Shown here: positions 53,416 to 64,000 of the stretch, piece after piece | How the letters are laid out: each line of letters begins with the position of its first letter | How positions within the stretch are numbered: the first letter of the stretch is position 1 | NCBI RefSeq assembly: GCF_000381265.1 | Contig: NZ_KB906254.1 | Span: 186,001 to 250,000 of the forward strand | DNA length: 64,000 bases | Origin: Curvibacter lanceolatus ATCC 14669 | GTDB taxonomy: Bacteria; Pseudomonadota; Gammaproteobacteria; Burkholderiales; Burkholderiaceae_C | Direction: 5' to 3' | The notes under the pieces: model-generated | The model's input: the letters and a program-made list of their open reading frames with translations, nothing else | Told to the model about the DNA's origin: nothing | Databases searched by the model: none | Translations under genes and position numbers: made by a program

Positions 53416-54717
53416 TTATATCGGTTCCACCCCGCACCAGTTCACCAGGTAATGGGCCAATGTCAGGGTGACCCGGCGCATGCTGGCCAGTGAAACGGCC
53501 TCGTCGATGCCATGGATGTCGCGCGCCAGCGGGCCGTAGTTGGTGACCGGGATGTCGGTCATCAGGCTGAAGTGGCGCCCGTCGGTGGTGGCGGTGCAGG
53601 CCAGGCGCTCGGCGTCGCGGCCGTTCACCGCCCGGTGGGCCTGGGCCAGGGCCTGCATGGCCGGGTGCTCCAGGTCGTACACGCAGCCTGGCGAGCGGTG
53701 GCCCCGGGTGCTGATCTCGACCTGCAGGGCCGGGTTCAGCGCCTGGGCCTTGGCGCGCAGGCGCTGGCTGATCTGAGCCACCGCGGCATCGGGCTCGGTG
53801 CCCGGGTAGTAGCTGCAGCGCAGGCCCAGGGTGCAGGTGCAGGGCACGGAAGAGTTCCATTCACCCCCCTCGATGCGCCCCAGGTTGAAGTTGATCGGGT
53901 GGGCCACGTCGCGGAAGGCCGGGTGGCGGTTCTCGGGTGCGTTCCACTCGGCTTCCAGCAGCTTCAGGTCGGCCATCAGTTCGTGGGCCGCCTCGATCGG
54001 GTTCAGGCCCTGGCCCATGTAGGCCACATGGGCGGGGCGGCCCGTCAGGGTGACGAACAGCCAGCTCACACCGACCTGGGCCGCCATCAGGGTTTCGGCA
54101 AAAGGCTCGGGGATGATCACCGCGTCGAAGTCGCTCAGGCGGGCCCGGGCCAGGGTGTTCTGCAGGGCATGCACCGTGGCCAGGGTGCCGTTGCCGGTGT
54201 TTTCTTCGTCCAGCACGGCATTGAAGCCGACCACCCCGGCCGGTTGCAGGCCGAGCCGGCGCAAGGCCTTGAACGCCATCAGGGCGCACACGATGCCGCC
54301 CTTCATGTCGCCCGCGCCCCGGCCGAACAGCCAGTCGTCCTTCACATGGGGCTCAAAGGGCGGTGCGCTCCAGAGCTGTTCGGGCCCGGTGGGCACCACG
54401 TCGAGGTGCCCGTTGAACAGCACCGAGCGTCCGCCCCCCTGTCTGGGCAGGTGGCGGGCCAGCAGGTTGTGCCGCCCGCCATCCGGGTCGCAGGGGCAAG
54501 AGAACATCGGTGAGCTGCGGATGCGATCGCTGTCGAGCACGATGCGTTCGCAGTCCAGGCCCAGCGCTTGCAGCCGGGCTTCCAGAAAATCGGCTGCCGG
54601 CTGCTCAGCCCCCGAGGGGCTGCGCGCGGCCACGAAGGCACTCAGGGTGTCGATCATCTCGGCATCCAGCTGGGCCACGGCCTGTTGCAAGCGGGCTGCG
54701 TCGGGGGTGGGGTGCAT
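53416..54717 (-). CDS. M20 metallodeacylase, ArgE/DapE type
   Basis: Zinc amidohydrolase that removes acyl groups from N-acyl amino acids; acetylornithine deacetylase-like. 433 aa from the ATG at 54717, chosen over 54723 because AAGGA then has a 5-base spacing. Metal residues: His104 and Asp106 in NGHLDVVP, Asp137 in GAGDMKGG, Glu171-Glu172 in LDEENTGNG, and a His in the IHGIDEAV near the C-terminus. Classical ArgE is about 380 aa, and no other arginine gene is near, so a different N-acyl substrate is plausible. Divergent from the amidase. Confidence 0.82.
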   Translation of the reverse strand: MHPTPDAARLQQAVAQLDAEMIDTLSAFVAARSPSGAEQPAADFLEARLQALGLDCERIVLDSDRIRSSPMFSCPCDPDGGRHNLLARHLPRQGGGRSVLFNGHLDVVPTGPEQLWSAPPFEPHVKDDWLFGRGAGDMKGGIVCALMAFKALRRLGLQPAGVVGFNAVLDEENTGNGTLATVHALQNTLARARLSDFDAVIIPEPFAETLMAAQVGVSWLFVTLTGRPAHVAYMGQGLNPIEAAHELMADLKLLEAEWNAPENRHPAFRDVAHPINFNLGRIEGGEWNSSVPCTCTLGLRCSYYPGTEPDAAVAQISQRLRAKAQALNPALQVEISTRGHRSPGCVYDLEHPAMQALAQAHRAVNGRDAERLACTATTDGRHFSLMTDIPVTNYGPLARDIHGIDEAVSLASMRRVTLTLAHYLVNWCGVEPI

Positions 54718-54848
54718 GGTCATTCCTTGGGCTGATGAAGGGGGAAACAGATGAATAGGGTTCGGCCCTGCGGGGCCCAGGCGGGCTGGCAAGCGGCCTG
54801 GGGGGTATGCTGCAGCGCATGTTCAACCCCGTGCAGGACCCGTCTGAC

Positions 54849-56252
54849 ATGAACGAACTCTGGCGTCTTTCGGCCACCGAGCTGGCCGCCCTGATCCGAA
54901 CCCGGCGCGTCAGTGCCACCGAGGTGGCCCAGGCCGCGCTGGCGCGGCTGGAGGCGGTCAACCCGGCCCTCAACGCGGTGGTCGAGCACCGGCCCGAGCA
55001 GGTGCTGGCCCAGGCGGCGGGCGTGGATGCGGCGCTGGCCCGTGGCGAGGCCCTGGGCCCGCTGGCCGGCGTGCCGGTGACCACCAAGGTCAATGTCGAT
55101 CAGCAAGGCTTTGCCACCACCAACGGCCTGCGCGCCCAGCAAGACTGGGTGGCGCAACACAACAGCCCGGTGGTCGACAACCTGGTGCGGGGCGGTGCGG
55201 TGCTGCTGGGGCGCACCAACACGCCGGCCTTCAGCTACCGCTGGTTCACCAGCAACCTGCTGCATGGCCGCACCCTCAACCCGCGCGACCCCCGCCTCAC
55301 GCCCGGGGGCTCCTCGGGCGGCGCCGGGGCGGCCGTGGCGGCCGGCATCGGCGCCCTGGCCCATGGCACCGACATCGCCGGCTCGGTGCGCTACCCGGCC
55401 TATGCCTGTGGCGTGCACGGGCTGCGGCCCTCGCTGGGGCGCATTCCGGCCTACAACGCCAGCTCGCCCGAGCGGGGCATCGGCCCGCAGCTGATGGCCG
55501 CTTCGGGCCCGCTGGCCCGCAGCGTGGCCGACCTGCGCCTGGCCCTGCAGGTGATGTCGGCCGCCGATGCGCGCGACCCCTGGTGGGTGCCGGCGCCGCT
55601 GCAAGGCCCCGAGGTGCCGAAGCGGGTGGCCCTGTGCCTGCGCCCCGACGGCCTGGCCACCTGCCCCGAGGGCGTGGCTGCCTTGCTTGACGCGGCGCGC
55701 CGCCTGCGTGATGCGGGCTGGCAGGTGGAGGAGATCGATCAATTGCCGCCCCTGCGCGAGGCCGTCGAGCTGCAAAAGCGCCTCTGGATCGGCGACGGCT
55801 ACGCCGCGCAATGGGCCGCTGCCCAGCGCGAGGGCGACCCCGGGGCACTGGCCGCACTGGCAGGCCAGCGTGCGCTGGCCGAGCGCCTGGACGCCAACAG
55901 CCTGCCGGCCACGCTCACCCGCCGCGCCACCCTGGTGCGCGAGTGGCAGCTGTTCTTCGAGCGTTACCCGGTGCTGCTGCTGCCCGTCAGTGCCGAACTG
56001 CCCTTTGAGAACGACCTGGACCTGCAGGGCGAGGCCGCCTACGCCCGGGTCTGGGAGGCCCAGATGACCCAGATCGGTCTGCCCCTGATGGGCCTGCCCG
56101 GCCTCACGGTGACCACCGGCCTGGTGGGCCGCACCCCGGTGGGCGTGCAGCTCACGGCGGCCCGCTTCCGCGAAGACCTGTGCCTGGCTGCGGGCGAGGC
56201 CATCGAGGCCGGCGGCGTGCCGGCCATGCCGGTCGATCCGGTATCGGCCTGA
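54849..56252 (+). CDS. Amidase signature enzyme
   Basis: 467 aa from the ATG at 54849; in-frame ATGs at 54807 and 54819 are alternatives. The Ser-cisSer-Lys triad is complete: Lys80 (PVTTKVN), Ser155 (GGSSGGAGA) and Ser179 (GTDIAGSVRYPA). Hydrolyses carboxamides to acids and ammonia; substrate unknown. No GatB or GatC gene is near, so it is not a GatCAB subunit in this context. Converges with the next gene, leaving 23 bases. Confidence 0.88.
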   Translation: MNELWRLSATELAALIRTRRVSATEVAQAALARLEAVNPALNAVVEHRPEQVLAQAAGVDAALARGEALGPLAGVPVTTKVNVDQQGFATTNGLRAQQDWVAQHNSPVVDNLVRGGAVLLGRTNTPAFSYRWFTSNLLHGRTLNPRDPRLTPGGSSGGAGAAVAAGIGALAHGTDIAGSVRYPAYACGVHGLRPSLGRIPAYNASSPERGIGPQLMAASGPLARSVADLRLALQVMSAADARDPWWVPAPLQGPEVPKRVALCLRPDGLATCPEGVAALLDAARRLRDAGWQVEEIDQLPPLREAVELQKRLWIGDGYAAQWAAAQREGDPGALAALAGQRALAERLDANSLPATLTRRATLVREWQLFFERYPVLLLPVSAELPFENDLDLQGEAAYARVWEAQMTQIGLPLMGLPGLTVTTGLVGRTPVGVQLTAARFREDLCLAAGEAIEAGGVPAMPVDPVSA

Positions 56253-56275: not shown

Positions 56276-57580
56276 TCATGCGGCAGCGCTCAGCACCGCG
56301 TCCAGCCGCTCGACCAGTTCGTCGGCGTTGGCCCGCGAAAACACCAGGGGTGGGCGGATCTTCAGGCAGTTGGCCTGAGGGCCCGAGGCACTGAGCAGCA
56401 CCCCGGCGCGGCGCATGCCGTTCACCACCCGGGCGGCCAGCGGCCCATCGGCCTGCCGGCTGGCGCGGTCATTCACCAGCTCCACGCTCACAAACAGGCC
56501 GGCCCCCCGCACATCGCCCACCGCCTCATGGCGGCCGGCCAGTGACTGCAGGCCCTCGCGCAGGTACTGGCCCACGGCCAGGGCGTTGGCCTGCAGCGAC
56601 TCCTGCTCGATCACGTCGAGCACGGCGCTGGCCACCGCCATCGACACCGGGTTGCCCCCAAAGGTGTTGAAGTAGCGGCACTCGCGCCCGAAGGCGGCCA
56701 GCACCTCGGGCCGCACCGCCAGGCCGGCGACAGGGTGGCCGTTGCCCATGGGCTTGCCCAGGGTCACGATGTCGGGCACCAGGCCGTGGCGCTCAAAGCC
56801 CCAGAAGGCCTCACCGGTGCGGCCGAAGCCGGGCTGCACCTCGTCGGCGATGAACAGGCCGCCGGCTTCGCGCATGGCTTGCACGGCCGGCTGCAGAAAG
56901 CCCGCCGGGTCGGTGCACAGGCCGTCGCTGGAGAACACCGTGTCCACCAGCAGGGCCGCGGGCTGCAGGCCCTGGGCCTGCAAATCGGTGATGGCCGCAC
57001 GCACATCGCGGGCCAGGCGCTGGCCCAGTTCGGCCGCGGGCTCGCGGTAGCTGTCGGGCGCGGCCACGGTGCGCACCGCAGCGCCCAGCTTCATGCCGGC
57101 GCCCAGCGAAGGCGAGGCCTCGGCCAGCACCGTGGTCACGCCGTGGTAGGCCCAGCGGGTGATGACCACGCCCTGCGCCCCGGTGTGGGCGCGTGCGATG
57201 CGCAGCGCCAGGTCGTTGGCTTCGCTGCCGGTGCAGGTGAACATGGCCTGGCCCAGCTCGCGGGGCAGGTGGCCCAGCAGGCGCTCGGCGTAGTCGAGCA
57301 CGCCCTGGTGCAGGTAGCGGGTGTGGGTGTTGAGCTGGGCGGCCTGTTGGGTCAGGGCCTGCACCACGCGAGGGTGGGCGTGGCCCACGCTGGCCACGTT
57401 GTTGTAGGCGTCGAGGTAGCGCCGGCCCTGGGCGTCGTACAGCGACACGCCTTCGCCGCGCACCAGGTGCAGCGGCTCTTCGTAGAAAAGGCGGTAGGCG
57501 GGGCCCAGCAGGCGGGCGCGGCGTTCGAGCAGGGCGGTGGTGTCGGGTGGGCTGGAGGGCGAGTTGAAGGGAGTGTGCAT
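56276..57580 (-). CDS. Class III PLP enzyme, AGXT2L-type (amino-alcohol-phosphate phospho-lyase)
   Basis: 434 aa. PLP Lys276 lies in GKPMGNGHPVAG and Asp246 in FIADEVQPGFGRTGEAFW. GKPMGNGHP and the early NNVASVGHAHP...NTHTRYLH are the marks of the AGXT2L group, whose human members ETNPPL and PHYKPL are not transaminases but release phosphate and ammonia from phosphoethanolamine or 5-phosphohydroxylysine, giving an aldehyde. The gene lies 11 bases after a hydroxylysine-kinase-like gene, supporting that chemistry. A generic omega-aminotransferase remains possible. Confidence 0.8.
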   Translation of the reverse strand: MHTPFNSPSSPPDTTALLERRARLLGPAYRLFYEEPLHLVRGEGVSLYDAQGRRYLDAYNNVASVGHAHPRVVQALTQQAAQLNTHTRYLHQGVLDYAERLLGHLPRELGQAMFTCTGSEANDLALRIARAHTGAQGVVITRWAYHGVTTVLAEASPSLGAGMKLGAAVRTVAAPDSYREPAAELGQRLARDVRAAITDLQAQGLQPAALLVDTVFSSDGLCTDPAGFLQPAVQAMREAGGLFIADEVQPGFGRTGEAFWGFERHGLVPDIVTLGKPMGNGHPVAGLAVRPEVLAAFGRECRYFNTFGGNPVSMAVASAVLDVIEQESLQANALAVGQYLREGLQSLAGRHEAVGDVRGAGLFVSVELVNDRASRQADGPLAARVVNGMRRAGVLLSASGPQANCLKIRPPLVFSRANADELVERLDAVLSAAA

Positions 57581-57591
57581 GGTGAAGGCTT

Positions 57592-58704
57592 TCAGCGGCA
57601 GGCTTGCAGAAGTGCGGCTTCAGCCTGGGCCGGGGTGGCGGAGTCCAGGGCCTGAAGTCGGGCCCAGGAGATGGCGTTGTTGCGCAGCAGGTAAGGCGCG
57701 TTGTCGGGCTGGCGCGCCGCCCGCCAGCCGCTGATGGCCACCACCATCACCAGGCGGGCCCGCACCAGATCGGTCAGCAGTTGCAGCTCCAGGGCCTGCA
57801 GCGGCCATTCGGCGTGGTAGGCCGCCGCAAAGCCCGCGATGGCGGCCAGCGCCCCGGCGGCGCCCCCCTCGCCGCGCTCGTCGAGCTGGTAGGAGGCGGC
57901 CACGGCCAGCTCGTTCACGCGCGGGGCCATCACCAGGTCGCCAAAGTCGAGGATGCCGCTGACCTGATCGCTGTGTTGCGCATCGACCAGCAGGTTGTAC
58001 AGGTTGAAGTCGTTGTGGATGGCCTGGCGCGGCAGGGCGCCCAGCCGAGGCAGCACGCGCTCGACAAAGCCATCGAGGGCCCGGTGGGCCAGGGCCTGGC
58101 GTGCCGGGTCGCTCACATGCACCAGCAGGCCGCGCACCAGGTCGGCCCGCTGGATGTCCCAGGGCAGGGCCTGCTCGCCGGCGGGGTGGCTGAAGTCGGC
58201 CAGGGCATGGTCCAGGCGGGCCAGCAGGCGGGCCACGTTCAGGCGTTGCGCCTCGGAGCGCGGGGCCTGCGGCATGGGCAGGCCCTCCAGGTAGCTGAAC
58301 AGGCGCACCACGCGCGGCCCGCCCTCGGGCCAGGGCAGGCTGAGGCTGGGCTGGCCGCTCTGGGTGGGCAGCAGGCGCTGCACCGGCAGCTCGGGGGCCT
58401 GGCGGGCCAGGTGCAGCAGCACCTGGGTCTGGAAGTCGGCCACCAGCGCGCTTTCCTGCGGGTGCGAGATCTTCAGCATGCAGGCCGGCCCCTGCGCGGG
58501 GCGCACCAGAAAGTTGGCGTCGCGCTCGCCGCTGAGGGCCTGCAATTCAAACCCGTGCAGGCCATAGTGCTGGCTCAGCAGGCCACGGGCCTCGTCCAGC
58601 GAGACCGGGGCGGGGGGCGCACTCAGCAAGGCGGCGCCGGGCAGCAGGGCCGCGCTGTCGTGCGCCGGCCGTTCCAGGGTGGAGGGCGGTGTGAGCGTGT
58701 TCAT
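57592..58704 (-). CDS. APH-fold kinase, hydroxylysine-kinase-like
   Basis: 370 aa from the ATG at 58704, one base after the stop of the preceding gene; a TTG at 58722 is less likely. ERDANF (60-65), Lys78 in MLKIS, the catalytic HNDFNLYN (230-237) and the metal loop DFGD (253-256) are in the order of aminoglycoside-phosphotransferase-fold kinases. ERDxNF, VRLFSYLEGLPM and the ELAVAASYQL tail resemble the HYKK (AGPHD1) branch, which uses GTP on 5-hydroxylysine. Substrate inferred only from this likeness and the next gene. Confidence 0.75.
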   Translation of the reverse strand: MNTLTPPSTLERPAHDSAALLPGAALLSAPPAPVSLDEARGLLSQHYGLHGFELQALSGERDANFLVRPAQGPACMLKISHPQESALVADFQTQVLLHLARQAPELPVQRLLPTQSGQPSLSLPWPEGGPRVVRLFSYLEGLPMPQAPRSEAQRLNVARLLARLDHALADFSHPAGEQALPWDIQRADLVRGLLVHVSDPARQALAHRALDGFVERVLPRLGALPRQAIHNDFNLYNLLVDAQHSDQVSGILDFGDLVMAPRVNELAVAASYQLDERGEGGAAGALAAIAGFAAAYHAEWPLQALELQLLTDLVRARLVMVVAISGWRAARQPDNAPYLLRNNAISWARLQALDSATPAQAEAALLQACR

Positions 58705-58705
58705 G

Positions 58706-59734
58706 TCACGCCACCGATTCAAAGCCGCGCAGCGCGCTCACCAGATTGGGCCCCAGGTCATCGCCCAGGTAGCCGCCCTCCTGCACCAGCACGGTGGGCA
58801 GGCCCAGGCGGGCGATCTCGGCCGTGATGCGGGCAAAGCCCGGGGTGCTGACGGCCAGCATGCGGTAGGGGTCGTGCTCGTGGGCGTCCAGCCCCAGGGC
58901 CAGCACCAGGGCGCCGGGGGCGTAGGCCCGCACGTGGGTCAGGGCCTGGTGCAGGGTCTGCAGGTAGCCCTCATCGCCCGTGCCGCGGGGCAGCGGCAGG
59001 TTGATGTTGTAGCCCAGGCCCTCGCCCTCGCCGTGCTCGTGGGCGTGGCCCGTGAAATAGGGCGTGCACACATGGGGGTCGGCATGCAGCGAGAGGGTCA
59101 GCACATCCTTGCGGCGCCAGAAGATGCCCTGGGTGCCGTTGCCATGGTGCACATCGATGTCCAGCACGGCCACCCGGGCATGGCGCTGGCGCAGGTGCTG
59201 GGCTGCAATGGCGCTGTTGTTGAGGTAGCAGAAGCCATTGGCCCGGTCGGTGTAGGCGTGGTGGCCTGGGGGGCGGCACAGCGCGTACACGGCGCGCTCA
59301 CCGGCCAGCACCAGTTCGGCCGCGTGGGTGGCGCTGTGGGCGGCGGCGGTGGCGGCCTGCCAGGTGTGGCGGCCGATGCTGCAGGCGTTGTCGCCCATGT
59401 GGTAGCCGGCCTGGCCCACCAGGTGCTCGGGGTAGGTGAAGGGCTGGCCGGGGAAAGGGTAGACGTTGGGCATCACCTCGTCGGAGGCGTTTTCGAGCTG
59501 CTGCCAGCGCTCCCAGGCGGTCTCCAGAAAGTGCAGGTACTGCGGTGTGTGGATGGCAGCGCGCGGGCCGGGGCCATGGTCGTCCGGGGCCAGCACCGTG
59601 TGGCCTGCGCCCTGGGCCGCAGTCAGCAGCCGGGTGGCACGTTCGGGTTGCTCGTTGCTGCGCTTGAGGCGGCCGCGCACGATGAACTGTTGCGGGTCGT
59701 GGCCCTGGTGCTGGTCGGAGTGGACGATCTTCAT
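58706..59734 (-). CDS. Histone-deacetylase-family hydrolase, acetylpolyamine amidohydrolase type
   Basis: 342 aa. Zinc ligands Asp194, His196 (DIDVHHGNGTQ) and Asp283 (GLDAHEHDP), general base pair His158-His159 (RPPGHHA) and Tyr322 (EGGYL) are all present; the numbering runs almost parallel to the Mycoplana acetylpolyamine amidohydrolase as I recall it. Removes acetyl groups from acetylated amines. A close paralogue lies 1.7 kb upstream. Thirteen bases after the GntR gene and directly coupled to the kinase. Confidence 0.88.
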   Translation of the reverse strand: MKIVHSDQHQGHDPQQFIVRGRLKRSNEQPERATRLLTAAQGAGHTVLAPDDHGPGPRAAIHTPQYLHFLETAWERWQQLENASDEVMPNVYPFPGQPFTYPEHLVGQAGYHMGDNACSIGRHTWQAATAAAHSATHAAELVLAGERAVYALCRPPGHHAYTDRANGFCYLNNSAIAAQHLRQRHARVAVLDIDVHHGNGTQGIFWRRKDVLTLSLHADPHVCTPYFTGHAHEHGEGEGLGYNINLPLPRGTGDEGYLQTLHQALTHVRAYAPGALVLALGLDAHEHDPYRMLAVSTPGFARITAEIARLGLPTVLVQEGGYLGDDLGPNLVSALRGFESVA

Positions 59735-59747
59735 GGCGGTTGGGGGG

Positions 59748-60494
59748 TCAGGGTAGGTTGGGTGGCGCGGCGGTTTGTGCTTGTTGGGCGCGCAGGAACA
59801 GGGCTTGCACGTGCTCCTGCCCTTCGATCAGGTGGTGGCGCAGGGCCTGCTCGGCGGCCGCGGCATCGCGCCGGCGCATGGCCTCGATCACCGGGCGGTG
59901 CGATTCGGCGATCAGGTTGGGGTCGCGGTAGCTGCCCTCGGTGAGGGCCAGGATCATGCGGATCTCGGTCTGCATGTTGCTGAACAGCCGGTGCAGGTAG
60001 GCGTTGCCCGAGATCTCGCAGATGCAGGCGTGGATGCCCAGGTCCAGGGCCACGCGCTCAGCCTGGCCCAGGTGCGGGGCCTGGGCCACCATGTGGTCGA
60101 CGCGGGCCTGCAGCTGCGCCAGTTGCTCGTCGCTGGCCTGGCGGCAGGCCAGGCCGGTGGCCATGACCTCCAGCCCGATGCGCACCTGGAACAGGTCGTT
60201 GATCTGCTGCAGGTCCAGGGTGCGCACCGTGAAGCCATAGCGCGGCCGCGCCACCAGCAGGCCCTGGCTTTCCAGGCGGCGGGCGGCCTCGCGCACCGGG
60301 GCCCGGCTGACGCCCATCTGGCGCGCCAGTTCGGCCTCGACGATGCGCGCCCCGGGGGGCAGGCGGCCTTCGACGATGGCCTGCTGCAGCTGGGCTTCGA
60401 CCACGGCCACCAGATCGGGCAGATCGATGGACGAAAAGCCGGGGGCAGCCGAGGCGGCACGGGGTTCGGGTTGTGGGGCGGCGATGGGGTTCAT
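59748..60494 (-). CDS. GntR-family regulator, FCD (FadR) subfamily
   Basis: 248 aa from the ATG at 60494; an ATG at 60527 gives 11 more residues but would cover a possible operator. Winged helix at about 27-95 (LQQAIVEGRLPPGARIVEAELARQMGVSRAPVREAARRLESQGLL), then an all-helical FCD effector domain with acid/His positions for a metal (DLGIHACICEISGNAYL; ESHRPVIEAM). Such regulators sense small carboxylates or amino acids and usually repress adjacent catabolic genes. Confidence 0.88.
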   Translation of the reverse strand: MNPIAAPQPEPRAASAAPGFSSIDLPDLVAVVEAQLQQAIVEGRLPPGARIVEAELARQMGVSRAPVREAARRLESQGLLVARPRYGFTVRTLDLQQINDLFQVRIGLEVMATGLACRQASDEQLAQLQARVDHMVAQAPHLGQAERVALDLGIHACICEISGNAYLHRLFSNMQTEIRMILALTEGSYRDPNLIAESHRPVIEAMRRRDAAAAEQALRHHLIEGQEHVQALFLRAQQAQTAAPPNLP

Positions 60495-60526
60495 GGTGTG
60501 GCGCGGCTTTGTCTCGATGGGGCCCA

Positions 60527-60537
60527 TGTCGGGGACA
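60527..60537. promoter_or_regulatory. Possible GntR operator dyad
   Basis: Perfect inverted repeat TGTC-GGG-GACA, inside a longer ATGT-N8-ACAT (60526-60541), 33 bases before the GntR start. Confidence 0.35.
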
Positions 60538-60542
60538 ACATG

Positions 60543-60578
60543 GGGGCCGATAGGGGGGCCGATATCGGGGCCGTTACT
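60543..60578. repeat. Three tandem 12-bp repeats
   Basis: GGGGCCGATAGG, GGGGCCGATATC and GGGGCCGTTACT (60543-60554, 60555-60566, 60567-60578). The last unit contains the stop codon of the EamA gene. Confidence 0.6.
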
Positions 60579-61455
60579 TTAAGCGCCTCGGCAGTGCCAG
60601 ATACACGCCAGCTGCGCCGATCAGGGCCATGCCCCCCAGGGCCAGGGCATCGGGTGGCCGCTGGAACCAGAAGGTGCTGATCAGCACCGCCAGCAGCAGC
60701 TGCAGGTAATTCATCGGGGCCAGCACCGAGGCCGACACGCGGCGGAAGGCGGCCAACAGCAGCAGCTGGGCCGCCCCGCTGACGAAGCCTCCGGCCACCA
60801 GAACGCCCAGTTCGACCCCGCCCGGCCAGGCCACCGGGGTGCTGAACAGGGCCGGCAGGTTGGTCACCACCAGGCACATGGCGGCCATGTAGGCGTATTG
60901 AACGGGGGCCGGCACCAGGCCCGACAGGCGCCGCGTGAGCACCTGGAACAGGGCATAGCACACGGCGGCCAGCGCCATCAGCAGCGTGCCGGTGAGGGGC
61001 AGGGCACCGCCCGGGCGCACGATCAGCAGCATGCCGGCAAAGCCCACCAGCACGGCCACCCATTGCACGCGGCCGACCTGCTCGCCCAGCACCCAGGGCG
61101 ACAGGGCCACCATGATCAGCGGGGCGGTGAAGTAGATCGCGGTGGCCTCGGCCAGCGGCATGCTGGCCAGGGCCGTCATGAAGCTGGTGGCCACGATGGC
61201 CAGCATGAGGCTGCGCAGGAACAGCAGTTTTTGATGGGGCTGGCGCCACACCCGCCAGTCGCCATGCCGCCACAGCAGCACCGCGGCCATGCTGCCCACG
61301 GCCACGTAGCGGGTCAGGTTCATCAGCGTGGCCGGGTAGTGGTTCAGCATCTGCTTGGCAAAGGCGTCATAGCAGGCAAAGGCCAGCAGGGCCGCCAGAA
61401 ACAGCAGCATGCCCTGGCGTTGTTGGCTGGCCACGGGGGCAGTGGCCTCAGCCAT
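60574..61455 (-). CDS. EamA/DMT-family transporter
   Basis: 293 aa with ten predicted membrane helices in two EamA repeats (about 15-140 and 155-290). Members export amino acids, amines or other metabolites. FLRSLMLAIVATSFMTALASMPLAEATAIYFTAPL is the typical first-repeat core. Its ATG overlaps the preceding deacetylase gene by 8 bases, suggesting coupled expression and related substrates. Confidence 0.85.
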   Translation of the reverse strand: MAEATAPVASQQRQGMLLFLAALLAFACYDAFAKQMLNHYPATLMNLTRYVAVGSMAAVLLWRHGDWRVWRQPHQKLLFLRSLMLAIVATSFMTALASMPLAEATAIYFTAPLIMVALSPWVLGEQVGRVQWVAVLVGFAGMLLIVRPGGALPLTGTLLMALAAVCYALFQVLTRRLSGLVPAPVQYAYMAAMCLVVTNLPALFSTPVAWPGGVELGVLVAGGFVSGAAQLLLLAAFRRVSASVLAPMNYLQLLLAVLISTFWFQRPPDALALGGMALIGAAGVYLALPRRLK

Positions 61456-62500
61456 GCAGGCCTTCCAGGAAGGCGCTCAGGCCGGGGCCGATGGCCTCGA
61501 CCATGTAGCCACCTTCTTGCACCACCACGGTGGGCAGGCCCAGGCGGCGCACCCGTCGGCCCACGTCGCGGTAGGCCTCAAAGTCGAGCCGCAGCACGCT
61601 GATCGGGTCGTCTTTGTAGGTGTCGAAGCCCAGGGCCAGCACCAGGGCGCGGGGGGCGAAGTCCAGCAGCGCGGCCTGGGCCGCGTCCAGGGCCCGCGCG
61701 AACTCGGCGTTGCCACTGCCGTGCGGCAGCGGCAGGTTGAGGTTGCTGCCGGTGCCGGGCCCGATGCCGCGCTCTTCGGCGTAGCCGGTGTAGAACGGAA
61801 AGTACTGGCCCGGGTCGGCGTGGGTGGAGACGGTCATCACCTCGGCGCGGTCGTAGAAGATGTTCTGCGTGCCGTCGCCGTGGTGCGCGTCCACGTCGAG
61901 CACGGCCACGCGGCCGAAGTGGCCCAGCAGGCGGGCGGCCGCGCAGGCGTTGTTGTTGACAAAGCAAAAGCCGCTGGCGCGGTCGCTGTGCGCGTGGTGG
62001 CCCGAGGGGCGGCACAGGGCGTAGGCGGCGGGGGCGCCGGCGATCACCGCGTCGGCGGCGGCCACCGCGCTGTGCGCCGAGCGCAGGATGGAGCGCCAAC
62101 TGGGCGCGCCGATGGGGCAGGACAGATCGCCCAGGTAGTAGCCGGTCTGCGCCACCAGCGAGGGCGAGGGGCAGGGCCCGCGGCGCAGGCCGCCGCCCGG
62201 GCTGGGGTAGGGGCCCAGGTTGGGCAGCACTTCAATGCCGGGCTCGACGCCGGGGCGGCGCAAGGCCTGCCAGCGGTCCCAGGCGGTTTCCAGGTAGTCC
62301 AGGTAGTGCGGGGCGTGCACGGCGGCCAGGGGCTCGCGCCCCAGCTCGGCAGGCTCGTGCACCGGCACCCCGCAGGCCTGCAGCGCGGCCTGCAGGGCGC
62401 TGGCACGGCTGGGCAGGTCGGCCGCGGGCATCAATCGGCCCAGGCGCATGAACTGCTGCGGCGTGTGCAGCATCTGGTCGGGCGAGAAGAAGGCTTGCAT
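61448..62500 (-). CDS. Second histone-deacetylase-family hydrolase, acetylpolyamine amidohydrolase type
   Basis: 350 aa from the ATG at 62500, with GGAG 6 bases before it; the frame runs open far upstream inside the next gene, which is a GC artefact. Zinc ligands Asp204, His206 (DVDAHHGDGTQ) and Asp293 (GFDTYKDDP), His168-His169 (RPSGHHA) and Tyr332 (EGGYM) are intact. Clearly a paralogue of the 58706-59734 protein, sharing HLV/LVAQ-GY and YLDYLETAWDRW regions, but different in the 80-115 loop. This points to two related acetylated substrates. Confidence 0.88.
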   Translation of the reverse strand: MQAFFSPDQMLHTPQQFMRLGRLMPAADLPSRASALQAALQACGVPVHEPAELGREPLAAVHAPHYLDYLETAWDRWQALRRPGVEPGIEVLPNLGPYPSPGGGLRRGPCPSPSLVAQTGYYLGDLSCPIGAPSWRSILRSAHSAVAAADAVIAGAPAAYALCRPSGHHAHSDRASGFCFVNNNACAAARLLGHFGRVAVLDVDAHHGDGTQNIFYDRAEVMTVSTHADPGQYFPFYTGYAEERGIGPGTGSNLNLPLPHGSGNAEFARALDAAQAALLDFAPRALVLALGFDTYKDDPISVLRLDFEAYRDVGRRVRRLGLPTVVVQEGGYMVEAIGPGLSAFLEGLHG

Positions 62501-62544: not shown

Positions 62545-63912
62545 TCAGGTAGGCAGGCTGGCTTCGAACAGGTCGAAGGCCTGGTCCAGCCGGTCGAACA
62601 GGGTGTCGAGCTCGGCCGCGCTGATGATCAGCGGCGGGCACAGGGCCACGGTGTCGCCCATGGCGCGCACGATCAGGCCCTGTTCCTGGGCCAGCTGGGC
62701 CAGGCGTGGGCCGGCCTTGAGGGCGGGGGCAAAGGGCTGGCGGCTGGCCTTGTCGGCCACCAGCTCCAGGGCACCGATCAGGCCCACGCCACGGGCTTCG
62801 CCCACGCAGCGGCGCTGGCCGAACTGGCGCAGCCGGGCCTGGAAGCCGGGCGCGAGCGCGCGCACGTGCGCCAGGATGTCGTCGTCCTCGTACACCTTGA
62901 GGGTTTCGAGCGCGATGGCCGAGGCCACCGGGTGGCCCGAGTAGGTGTAGCCGTGGCCGAAGGTGCCGATGCGCCCGCTGTTGGCGGCCAGGGCGGTGTG
63001 GATGGCGGGCGACACCATCACGGCGGAGATCGGCACATAGCCCGAGGACAAGGCCTTGGCGCAGGTCAGGATGTCGGGCTGCAGGCCGAAGGTGGTCGAG
63101 CCGAACATGTTGCCGGTGCGGCCAAAGCCGCAGATCACCTCGTCGGCCACCAGCAGCACCTGGTACTTGCGCAGCACGGCCTGCACTTTCTCGAAGTAGG
63201 TTTCGGGCGGCACGATCACGCCGCCCGCGCCCATCACCGGCTCGGCAAAGAAGGCGGCCACGGTGTCGGGGCCTTCCTGCAGGATGCGCTGCTCCAGCGC
63301 ATCGGCCAGGCGGGTGGCAAAGTCGGCCTCGCTTTCGCCCGGCAGGCCGTAGCGGTAGTGGTGCGGGCACTCGACATGGCTGATGCGGTCTATCGGCAGG
63401 TCGAAGTCCTGGTGGTTGGCAGGCAGGCCGCTGAGGCTGGCCGCCGCCACCGTCACGCCGTGGTAGGCGCGCTGGCGCGCCAGGATCTTCTTCTTGCCGG
63501 GCTTGCCGATGGCGTTGTGGTAGTACCAGATCATCTTCACCGCGCTGTCGTTGGCCTCAGAGCCCGAGTTGGCAAAGAACACCCGGGCCATGGGCACCGG
63601 TGCCAGGGCCAGCAGCTTTTCGGCCAGTTGCGCCACCGCCGGGTTGGAGCGGTGGTTGAAGGTGTGGTAGTAGGGCAGGGTCTGCAGGGCCTGGGTGCCT
63701 GCCGCGATCAGGCGCGGGTGGCTGAAGCCCAGCGAGCTGCACCACAGGCCCGACATGCCCTCGATGTAGCGGCGGCCCTGCTCGTCTTCGACATGGATGC
63801 CGTCGCCGCGCGTGATCACCAGCGGGCCGACGTCGGCGTGGGTGGCCAGGTTGGTGAAGGGGTGCAGGTGGGCCGCGATGTCCTTGGCGGCCAGCTCGCT
63901 GGGGGTATTCAT
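62545..63912 (-). CDS. Class III omega-aminotransferase, SpuC-like
   Basis: 455 aa. PLP Lys286 in CAKALSSGYVPISAV, Asp257 in VADEVICGFGRTG, phosphate loop NSGSEANDSAVKM and EGMSGLWCSSLGFSHP at the N-terminus are those of diamine:pyruvate (SpuC) and omega-amino-acid:pyruvate transaminases. Probably removes a terminal amino group from a diamine freed by the adjacent deacetylase. Different from the AGXT2L-type enzyme in this cluster. It precedes that deacetylase by 44 bases. Confidence 0.88.
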   Translation of the reverse strand: MNTPSELAAKDIAAHLHPFTNLATHADVGPLVITRGDGIHVEDEQGRRYIEGMSGLWCSSLGFSHPRLIAAGTQALQTLPYYHTFNHRSNPAVAQLAEKLLALAPVPMARVFFANSGSEANDSAVKMIWYYHNAIGKPGKKKILARQRAYHGVTVAAASLSGLPANHQDFDLPIDRISHVECPHHYRYGLPGESEADFATRLADALEQRILQEGPDTVAAFFAEPVMGAGGVIVPPETYFEKVQAVLRKYQVLLVADEVICGFGRTGNMFGSTTFGLQPDILTCAKALSSGYVPISAVMVSPAIHTALAANSGRIGTFGHGYTYSGHPVASAIALETLKVYEDDDILAHVRALAPGFQARLRQFGQRRCVGEARGVGLIGALELVADKASRQPFAPALKAGPRLAQLAQEQGLIVRAMGDTVALCPPLIISAAELDTLFDRLDQAFDLFEASLPT

Positions 63913-63949: not shown

Positions 63950-64000
63950 TCAGTAGCCGCGTTGCAGGTCGACCGCCACCTCGGCGGCCCGGCCGGCGTC
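63950..64000 (-). CDS. 3' end of an unidentified gene (runs off the window)
   Basis: Open minus-strand frame from the window edge to TGA at 63952-63950, encoding ...AAEVAVDLQRGY. The VDxxRGY ending is seen in some 2-hydroxyacid dehydrogenases, but 16 residues are too few to identify it. It lies 37 bases before the aminotransferase, so probably the same operon. Confidence 0.4.
   Translation of the reverse strand, partial: DAGRAAEVAVDLQRGY

Follow-up and report, generated by a model that had tools for sequence, protein, structure and literature searches.

Three adjacent genes in a 64,000-base stretch of the Curvibacter lanceolatus ATCC 14669 genome (bases 186001-250000 of contig C2 in the 6.83-Mb assembly; hereinafter the window) encode a deacetylase, a kinase and a pyridoxal phosphate (PLP)-dependent enzyme, and the question raised by this locus is whether these enzymes form a catabolic route and, if so, for what kind of compound. 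All three genes are on the minus strand, with gaps of 11 bases (lyase/kinase) and 1 base (kinase/HDA1):

56276-57580, minus strand: LYASE, class III PLP enzyme, phospho-lyase of the ETNPPL/5g4i type (Protein Data Bank (PDB) matches, signature columns, tree)
57592-58704 (ATG start), minus strand: KIN, APH-fold kinase paired with the lyase (Pfam, PRK06148, motifs, fold model)
58706-59734, minus strand: HDA1, acetylpolyamine amidohydrolase (APAH)-type deacetylase in which Tyr replaces the gatekeeper Ile of characterized bacterial enzymes (3men and 9gkz matches)

An alternative TTG start of the kinase at 58722 would make it overlap HDA1. The Pfam scores are 259 bits for the lyase (Aminotran_3), 85 bits for the kinase (APH) and 245 bits for HDA1 (Hist_deacetyl). 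Together with the coordinates, these matches confirm the tandem of deacetylase, kinase and PLP enzyme described in the original prediction, which was made from the DNA sequence alone; profile and PDB matches and a tree of the lyase bear out the classes assigned there, namely an APAH-type deacetylase, a phospho-lyase and a kinase related to lyase-fused kinase domains. In contrast, the proposal that these three genes make up the route is not supported as written, since the triad ends a run of 13 genes, and none of the particular substrates named (N-acetyl-hydroxylysine, a hydroxylated polyamine, N-acetyl-ethanolamine) is supported as written. The run is a real, conserved set of known enzyme kinds which, as a whole, is probably undescribed. 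We consider it fairly probable that the triad forms the catalytic end of an operon under GntR control through which an N-acylated (probably N-acetylated) vicinal amino alcohol is utilized, one bearing a second amine (for example, a hydroxylated diamine or diamino acid), and that the kinase and the lyase were added in Burkholderiales to an older module.

The thirteen-gene run and its probable control region

From the upstream end, the run consists of genes for a class II aldolase, a SBP_bac_5 binding protein (SBP), OppB, OppC, OppDF, a GhrA-like dehydrogenase, the aminotransferase AT2, a second deacetylase (HDA2), an EamA transporter, a GntR regulator, HDA1, the kinase and the lyase. All 13 genes share one strand and span window coordinates 70914 to 56276, neighbors being separated by -8 to 77 bases (OppDF was taken from the end of its match; its longest frame overlaps OppC). 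The genes for GntR, EamA, HDA2 and AT2, on the same strand within the window, had been overlooked previously, as had six more genes of the run at or beyond the window edge:

59748-60527, minus strand: GntR/FCD regulator (FCD and GntR domains; in other orders and classes, a homologue is found beside HDA1 and the importer)
60574-61455, minus strand: EamA/DMT family transporter (Pfam)
61448-62500, minus strand: HDA2, second APAH-type deacetylase, with the gatekeeper PIS and an RPSGHH-like rather than RPPGHH motif (3men, 306 bits)
62545-63912, minus strand: AT2, class III aminotransferase of the PRK06105 subfamily (729 bits, cut-off 517)
63950-64000 in the window, continuing to 64906, minus strand: GhrA-like 2-hydroxyacid dehydrogenase (contig stretch beyond the window)
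beyond the window, up to 70914, minus strand: OppDF, OppC, OppB, SBP_bac_5 and class II aldolase (contig stretch beyond the window)

The order from aldolase to lyase is identical in all four genomes of the family with enough upstream DNA (L168-L171), with a wider GntR-HDA1 spacing in two of these (L170 and L171), and the Comamonadaceae plasmid CP099606 carries the run from the SBP onward plus an additional Zn-dependent hydrolase. The 13 genes would be expressed as a single transcript.

Upstream of the run lies the palindrome ACTGTCGACAGT; the 10-mer CTGTCGACAG is located at window coordinate 70990-70999 (contig C2 256991-257000), 75 bases before the aldolase gene. The palindrome core, TGTCGACA, typically in the form A(C/T)TGTCGACAGT, precedes the aldolase or SBP match by 42-151 bases in 17 of the 23 records, of which L120 and L190 belong to a single genome; each of these 17 loci contains one exact core. 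It is missing in L177-L180 and L182, where no GntR/HDA1 match was found, and in L109, which has a differing GntR. The palindrome is common to GntR/HDA1 modules across other orders and classes of the phylum and is a probable GntR operator. Genome-wide, the 10-mer occurs five times, compared to two occurrences of the reversed control, and no link to the pathway was apparent around the four other sites, where raw open frames only were inspected, so no wider regulon is claimed.

Two neighboring genes could contribute accessory functions:

53416-54720, minus strand: M20/ArgE-DapE type deacylase, likely accessory, start unsettled (PRK06837, 425 bits, cut-off 376, scored on 53416-54792)
54807-56252, plus (opposite) strand: amidase, possible accessory (PRK07487, 755 bits, cut-off 428)

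The gene for the M20 enzyme is found near the lyase in many relatives but not in all.

Families of the three enzymes

By sequence family, the PLP enzyme is supported as a phospho-lyase rather than a transaminase. Among solved structures, it is closest to 5g4i, titled phospholyase (388 bits), and to 6tor, the human ethanolamine-phosphate phospho-lyase ETNPPL (361 bits); the third PDB match, a decarboxylase, reaches 183 bits. In a tree of 99 rows, which was built by a quick method and has long outgroup branches, 91 rows including the query and both references are split from 8 transaminase rows with a Shimodaira-Hasegawa-like approximate likelihood ratio (SH-aLRT) support of 99; the 8 outgroup rows are class III aminotransferases of the same genome and represent 7 different proteins (AT2 twice). 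The records entering this tree were reduced by 31 of 131 with more than 88% identity to another record and then by 12 of the remaining 100 with short flanks. Sixteen columns were taken as a signature, each conserved at 95% or more in 87 phospho-lyase rows, the query among them and four remote rows excluded, and matched in no more than one transaminase row. The lyase agrees with the phospho-lyases at all 16, as does 5g4i, and human ETNPPL agrees at 13. The nearest named relative, from Curvibacter gracilis, is 96% identical, and the other 11 matches within the genome of C. lanceolatus do not exceed 37% identity. The PLP enzyme does not group with ordinary transaminases; such a grouping was what the original prediction had named as telling against it. 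The alternative that it is an ordinary transaminase and the pathway the standard acetyl-polyamine route draws on the class III fold and on plasmid records in which relatives of the lyase are annotated as aminotransferases, but is contradicted by the tree, the signature residues and the 5g4i and 6tor matches, which rule out a transaminase assignment of the lyase and leave this alternative extremely improbable. The enzyme shares with ETNPPL/AGXT2L1, PHYKPL and bacterial 5g4i the sequence family, the GKPMGNGHP motif (from residue 275), the signature columns and a kinase partner (the PHYKPL sequence was outside the comparison), and differs from them in being encoded in a run with deacetylases and an importer.

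The kinase scores 285 bits against positions 9-340 of the 1015-position PRK06148 profile, and the lyase scores 521 bits against positions 582-1011 of that profile; both are under the whole-model cut-off of 1128, as is to be expected when each gene covers one half of a fused model. The two proteins therefore resemble the two ends of the fused kinase-lyase proteins PRK06148/PRK06149 but are encoded by separate genes and score under the whole-model cut-offs. In Acidovorax benzenivorans, kinase and lyase are encoded in a single open reading frame with no intervening stop (L016:8669-11302). Of the features expected of a HYKK-type kinase, the APH fold, the HxDxxxxN motif (HNDFNLYN, from residue 236) and DFG (DFGD, from residue 259; numbering from the TTG start) are present. 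With respect to homoserine kinases, a grouping that had also been raised as damaging to the original prediction, sequence and structure diverge. Homoserine kinase models score at most 34 bits, which favors PRK06148, whereas the AlphaFold2 model of the kinase (mean predicted local distance difference test score 89.6, from 10 sequences) has the homoserine kinase 2ppq as its top fold match (E 2e-13), just ahead of the microcompartment aminopropanol kinase 6ef6 (7e-12) and the amicoumacin kinase 6sui (1e-11). A homoserine kinase is accordingly disfavored by sequence (34 vs 285 bits) and compatible with the fold. Fold and sequence matches together predict a small-molecule kinase, with its exact class left between the two lines of evidence.

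The best matches of HDA1 are acetylpolyamine amidohydrolases (3men, 325 bits; 9gkz, 289 bits; also 6phr and 3q9b), and the protein contains the motifs RPPGHH (154-159), DIDVHHG (from 192) and EGGY (319-322). According to PMC11532494, bacterial polyamine deacetylases bear RPPGHH, EGGY and a PIS gatekeeper, at which human HDAC10 has Glu. HDA1 has PYR instead of PIS, and the pattern PY[KRQ] is found in 38 of 38 Burkholderiales records, along with PPGHH in all 38 and EGGY in 37. The HDA2 records are different, with PIS in 19 of 25, PVS in one and five unread by the pattern, EGGY in 24 and PPGHH in none. In module copies outside the family, the gatekeeper is Leu in 9 of 11 and Gln in 2, and L190 also has Leu. 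Given that the APAH 3men itself has PQS at this site, the PIS motif is not universal, so the gatekeeper Tyr is a lead to specificity and not a proof; HDA1 is predicted to be an APAH-type deacetylase, possibly with altered specificity. In summary of its relationships, HDA1 resembles the bacterial acetylpolyamine amidohydrolases of cluster 4 (PA0321, PA1409 and the M. ramosa APAH) in overall sequence, RPPGHH, EGGY and the metal-site motif, whereas the PY[KRQ] pattern in place of PIS, an HDA2 lacking RPPGHH and the linkage to a kinase/lyase pair and an Opp-type importer set the present system apart. According to PMC4784309, disruption of one or the other of two APAH genes slows the growth of Pseudomonas aeruginosa on acetylputrescine and acetylcadaverine. 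At some of the Variovorax, Rhodoferax and Cupriavidus loci, HDA2 was not detected.

With regard to novelty, kinase/phospho-lyase pairs are known in vertebrates, where they were reportedly described by Veiga-da-Cunha in 2012. The original prediction suggested that the union of such a pair with a deacetylase could be new in bacteria. The pair in itself is not new, since fused bacterial families are curated, whereas no description of a deacetylase joined to it was found among the open-licence papers listed, which is not proof of absence. The class III enzyme of RMM microcompartment loci probably acts as a phospho-lyase; a transaminase is proposed in the papers cited below. The aminopropanol microcompartment (RMM/Aut) resembles the present locus in combining an APH-fold amino-alcohol kinase (6ef6), an aminotransferase-like enzyme and GntR, but deacetylases and a peptide-type importer are found here instead of the shell protein and the short-chain dehydrogenase/reductase (SDR). 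The sources list a phosphotransferase, an SDR, an aminotransferase and GntR in RMM loci (PMC4207490) and propose a transaminase route for the aminopropanol microcompartment (PMC6620236). No shell protein or SDR was detected among the locus genes scanned with Pfam, a genome-wide search for shell proteins not having been made. A cassette that resembles the RMM aminopropanol set, SDR-kinase-lyase with a divergent GntR gene and no APAH match, is present in L040, L154-L157, L159 and L160.

Distribution and origin of the gene set

Of 299 family genomes, 22 encode the lyase at E 1e-90 or better, that of C. lanceolatus included; in a phylum-wide sample, 39 of 398 genomes do so at E 1e-120. A record was counted as a triad if the three genes lay on one strand, with the kinase immediately preceding the lyase and HDA1 no more than 600 bases ahead of the kinase. 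Among 131 lyase locus records, 36 contain the triad, 60 have a kinase directly upstream without such an HDA1, 32 have no kinase directly upstream and 3 are cut off; thus, the kinase directly precedes the lyase in 96 records. These records overlap in genomes (e.g., L071/L170), and 4 of 135 (L043, L044, L079, L080) were excluded for a short lyase match, whereas L081-L105 were excluded for short flanks. The distance between HDA1 and the kinase does not exceed 70 bases in 33 of the 36 triad records. In 8 of these 32 records (L053, L056, L059, L063-L066, L068), a kinase domain is located 1.7-1.9 kb upstream, as in the fused family. A lack of conservation of the gene order would have told against the original prediction, but the order is conserved: the triad recurs in these 36 records and in 12 of the 22 lyase-bearing genomes of the family, although the other 10 lack it.

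The same components are also found in other arrangements. The Alcaligenes locus (L069) groups the importer, an APAH, the kinase and the lyase with an SDR, a thiamine pyrophosphate enzyme and a PuuC-like aldehyde dehydrogenase; the first four are also combined in Achromobacter (L048/L049) and on the Chelatococcus plasmid pCO-6 (L109). In one genome from another class of the phylum (G495), aldolase, SBP, OppBCD, GhrA, kinase and lyase genes are consecutive, with GntR and HDA1 divergent.

The deacetylase-GntR-importer part of the run is more widespread. Among 378 genomes of the phylum, 25 encode relatives of the SBP (E 1e-100), at 29 places in total. The 18 further SBP neighborhoods, from 16 genomes and 17 of them outside the family, include 9 with HDA1 adjoining a GntR homologue and 6 with the aldolase. 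Because of its wide spread, this module could be the older part, and the kinase/lyase pair appears to be a later addition to a broader module for acyl-amine uptake. An APAH-GntR-(aldolase)-Opp importer module without kinase and lyase was observed at L172-L176, L181, L183, L185 and L186, in other genomes of the phylum.

Proposed pathway and alternative explanations

Under the operon reading that we favor, an Opp/Dpp-type importer would take up an acylated conjugate, from which the amine would be freed by the deacetylases HDA1 and HDA2, possibly aided by the M20 enzyme or the amidase. The kinase would phosphorylate the hydroxyl adjoining the primary amine, and the lyase would eliminate ammonia and phosphate to yield an aldehyde, which is the chemistry of the phospho-lyase family as given in PMC8154272. 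The aldehyde might then be oxidized by an enzyme encoded outside the run, and AT2 could remove the second nitrogen. The kinase/lyase pair would have joined the older deacetylase-GntR-importer module in Burkholderiales. What the sequences show directly is the enzyme families, the gene order with its conservation and the common palindrome; the sequence of reactions, the acyl group and the substrate are inferred. Tentatively, we go further and propose a dedicated route for N-acylated hydroxylated diamines or diamino acids of the 2-hydroxyputrescine or 5-hydroxylysine type: an APAH with altered specificity (gatekeeper Tyr) would supply the kinase and the phospho-lyase, and the route would have arisen when that pair joined a widespread uptake module for acyl-amines under GntR control. 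Either way, the locus provides a concrete pathway, open to testing, by which acylated amino alcohols bearing a second amine could be used; among the open-licence papers listed, kinase and phospho-lyase were not seen in this role. It also gives a group of HDAC-like bacterial deacetylases a biological setting, points to the reuse of kinase/phospho-lyase pairs as a module and, through the palindrome and GntR, provides a handle on the inducer.

Several observations weigh against this interpretation. Kinase and lyase are found in none of the 18 other SBP neighborhoods, within the stretch examined (the one further case with both is G495), and for 65 of the 89 lyase rows labeled in the tree, an APAH-type gene is not in reach; from these two facts it follows that the two halves of the run could serve different compounds. 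On the best tree, linkage of the lyase to HDA changes five times (L120 was manually labeled as linked, since its HDA1 is located slightly beyond the stretch, in L190), but a single origin is not rejected by the approximately unbiased test (p 0.199), so repeated independent assembly is not shown. The clade of triad lyases (SH-aLRT 93) consists of the query and 19 triad records, the other 17 having been dropped as near copies. Furthermore, no aldehyde dehydrogenase was found in the 13-gene run, and the sequence does not fix the acyl group or the substrate, the SBP and HDA1 having remote characterized relatives only.

The evidence for particular substrates is divided. If 5-hydroxylysine, as a peptide or in an N-acyl form, were the substrate, its deacylation followed by 5-phosphorylation and elimination would lead to 2-aminoadipate semialdehyde, to be oxidized by L-piperideine-6-carboxylate (P6C) dehydrogenase and followed by transamination. 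The peptide-type importer fits this scheme, and the genome encodes a P6C dehydrogenase (contig C1 715405-716826; 809 bits, curated cut-off 730) for which only 1 of 14 control genomes scores over the cut-off. A match to this enzyme is present in 9 of 11 triad genomes versus 80 of 259 others (p 0.001) and in 3 of 9 lyase genomes without the triad, counts which assume that the 270 genomes scanned are the first 270 of the family genome list. However, the triad genomes G255 and G177 lack a match at the threshold, the comparison by genus is weaker (4 of 5 vs 47 of 136, p 0.057), the statistics ignore relatedness, and the P6C dehydrogenase also serves ordinary lysine breakdown, with its gene far from the operon and beside an IclR regulator. 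We regard this weakly supported substrate as unlikely. 2-Hydroxyputrescine is a marker polyamine of Betaproteobacteria, and its N-acetyl form, from which the lyase would produce 4-aminobutanal on the way to 4-aminobutyrate (GABA), would account for two APAH-type deacetylases and for the PDB neighbors of AT2 (5ghf and 6tb1/6g4b, then GABA and polyamine transaminases). The PuuC-like aldehyde dehydrogenase of the Alcaligenes cluster (636 bits, under the cut-off of 850) points the same way. This candidate is nonetheless unlikely given an importer of the Opp rather than the Pot type, an HDA1 without the PIS gatekeeper, and a genome in which no aminobutyraldehyde dehydrogenase scores over the cut-off (best 506 of 615).

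Two further explanations concern the role of the kinase/lyase pair. The kinase and the lyase might degrade just ethanolamine or 1-amino-2-propanol, with the deacetylase acting on an N-acyl form or on something unrelated, as could be expected from the human solved relative, an ethanolamine-phosphate enzyme, from 6ef6 as the second fold match, and from SDR-kinase-lyase cassettes with a divergent GntR in Vogesella and other genomes of the order, which recall the RMM gene set; such a pathway would need neither two APAHs nor a peptide-type importer, an aminotransferase and a 2-hydroxyacid dehydrogenase, and we find it rather unlikely. Alternatively, one regulator could govern two separate functions, an APAH-importer system for acetyl-lysine peptides or acetyl polyamines and a hitch-hiking kinase/lyase pair. 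The existence of the module without the pair in other orders and classes, and of the pair in many other contexts, would be natural under this scenario, but the close packing of HDA1 and the kinase kept in 36 records (33 of them within 70 bases) and the co-location in other arrangements speak for a shared function, so that this explanation, too, appears improbable.

Several loci with other contents were noticed in the course of these comparisons. HDAC-like matches of 125-138 bits beside the lyases L130, L133, L134 and L141 are below the 250-bit threshold for an APAH call and were not counted. On the Chelatococcus plasmid pCO-6 (L109:683-25212), a cluster of importer, APAH, GntR, Zn hydrolase, kinase, lyase, DMT and cupin genes lies directly beside an ectoine/hydroxyectoine catabolic cluster (eutB-eutC-doeA-doeB-ehu). 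The EutB- and EutC-like neighbors of other lyases score under the cut-offs (EutB 222 in L122 and 215 in L135, of 413; EutC 234 in L122, of 472), so that a link to hydroxyectoine was not adopted and is a lead only. L122 and L147, from the same family, contain a different kinase-lyase pair, with threonine-dehydratase-like, ornithine-cyclodeaminase-like and GhrA-like genes nearby. Finally, plasmids carry a relative of the lyase (E 1e-80) at 432 places in 381 records, among them Sinorhizobium (117), Rhizobium (50), Klebsiella (42) and Rahnella (11).

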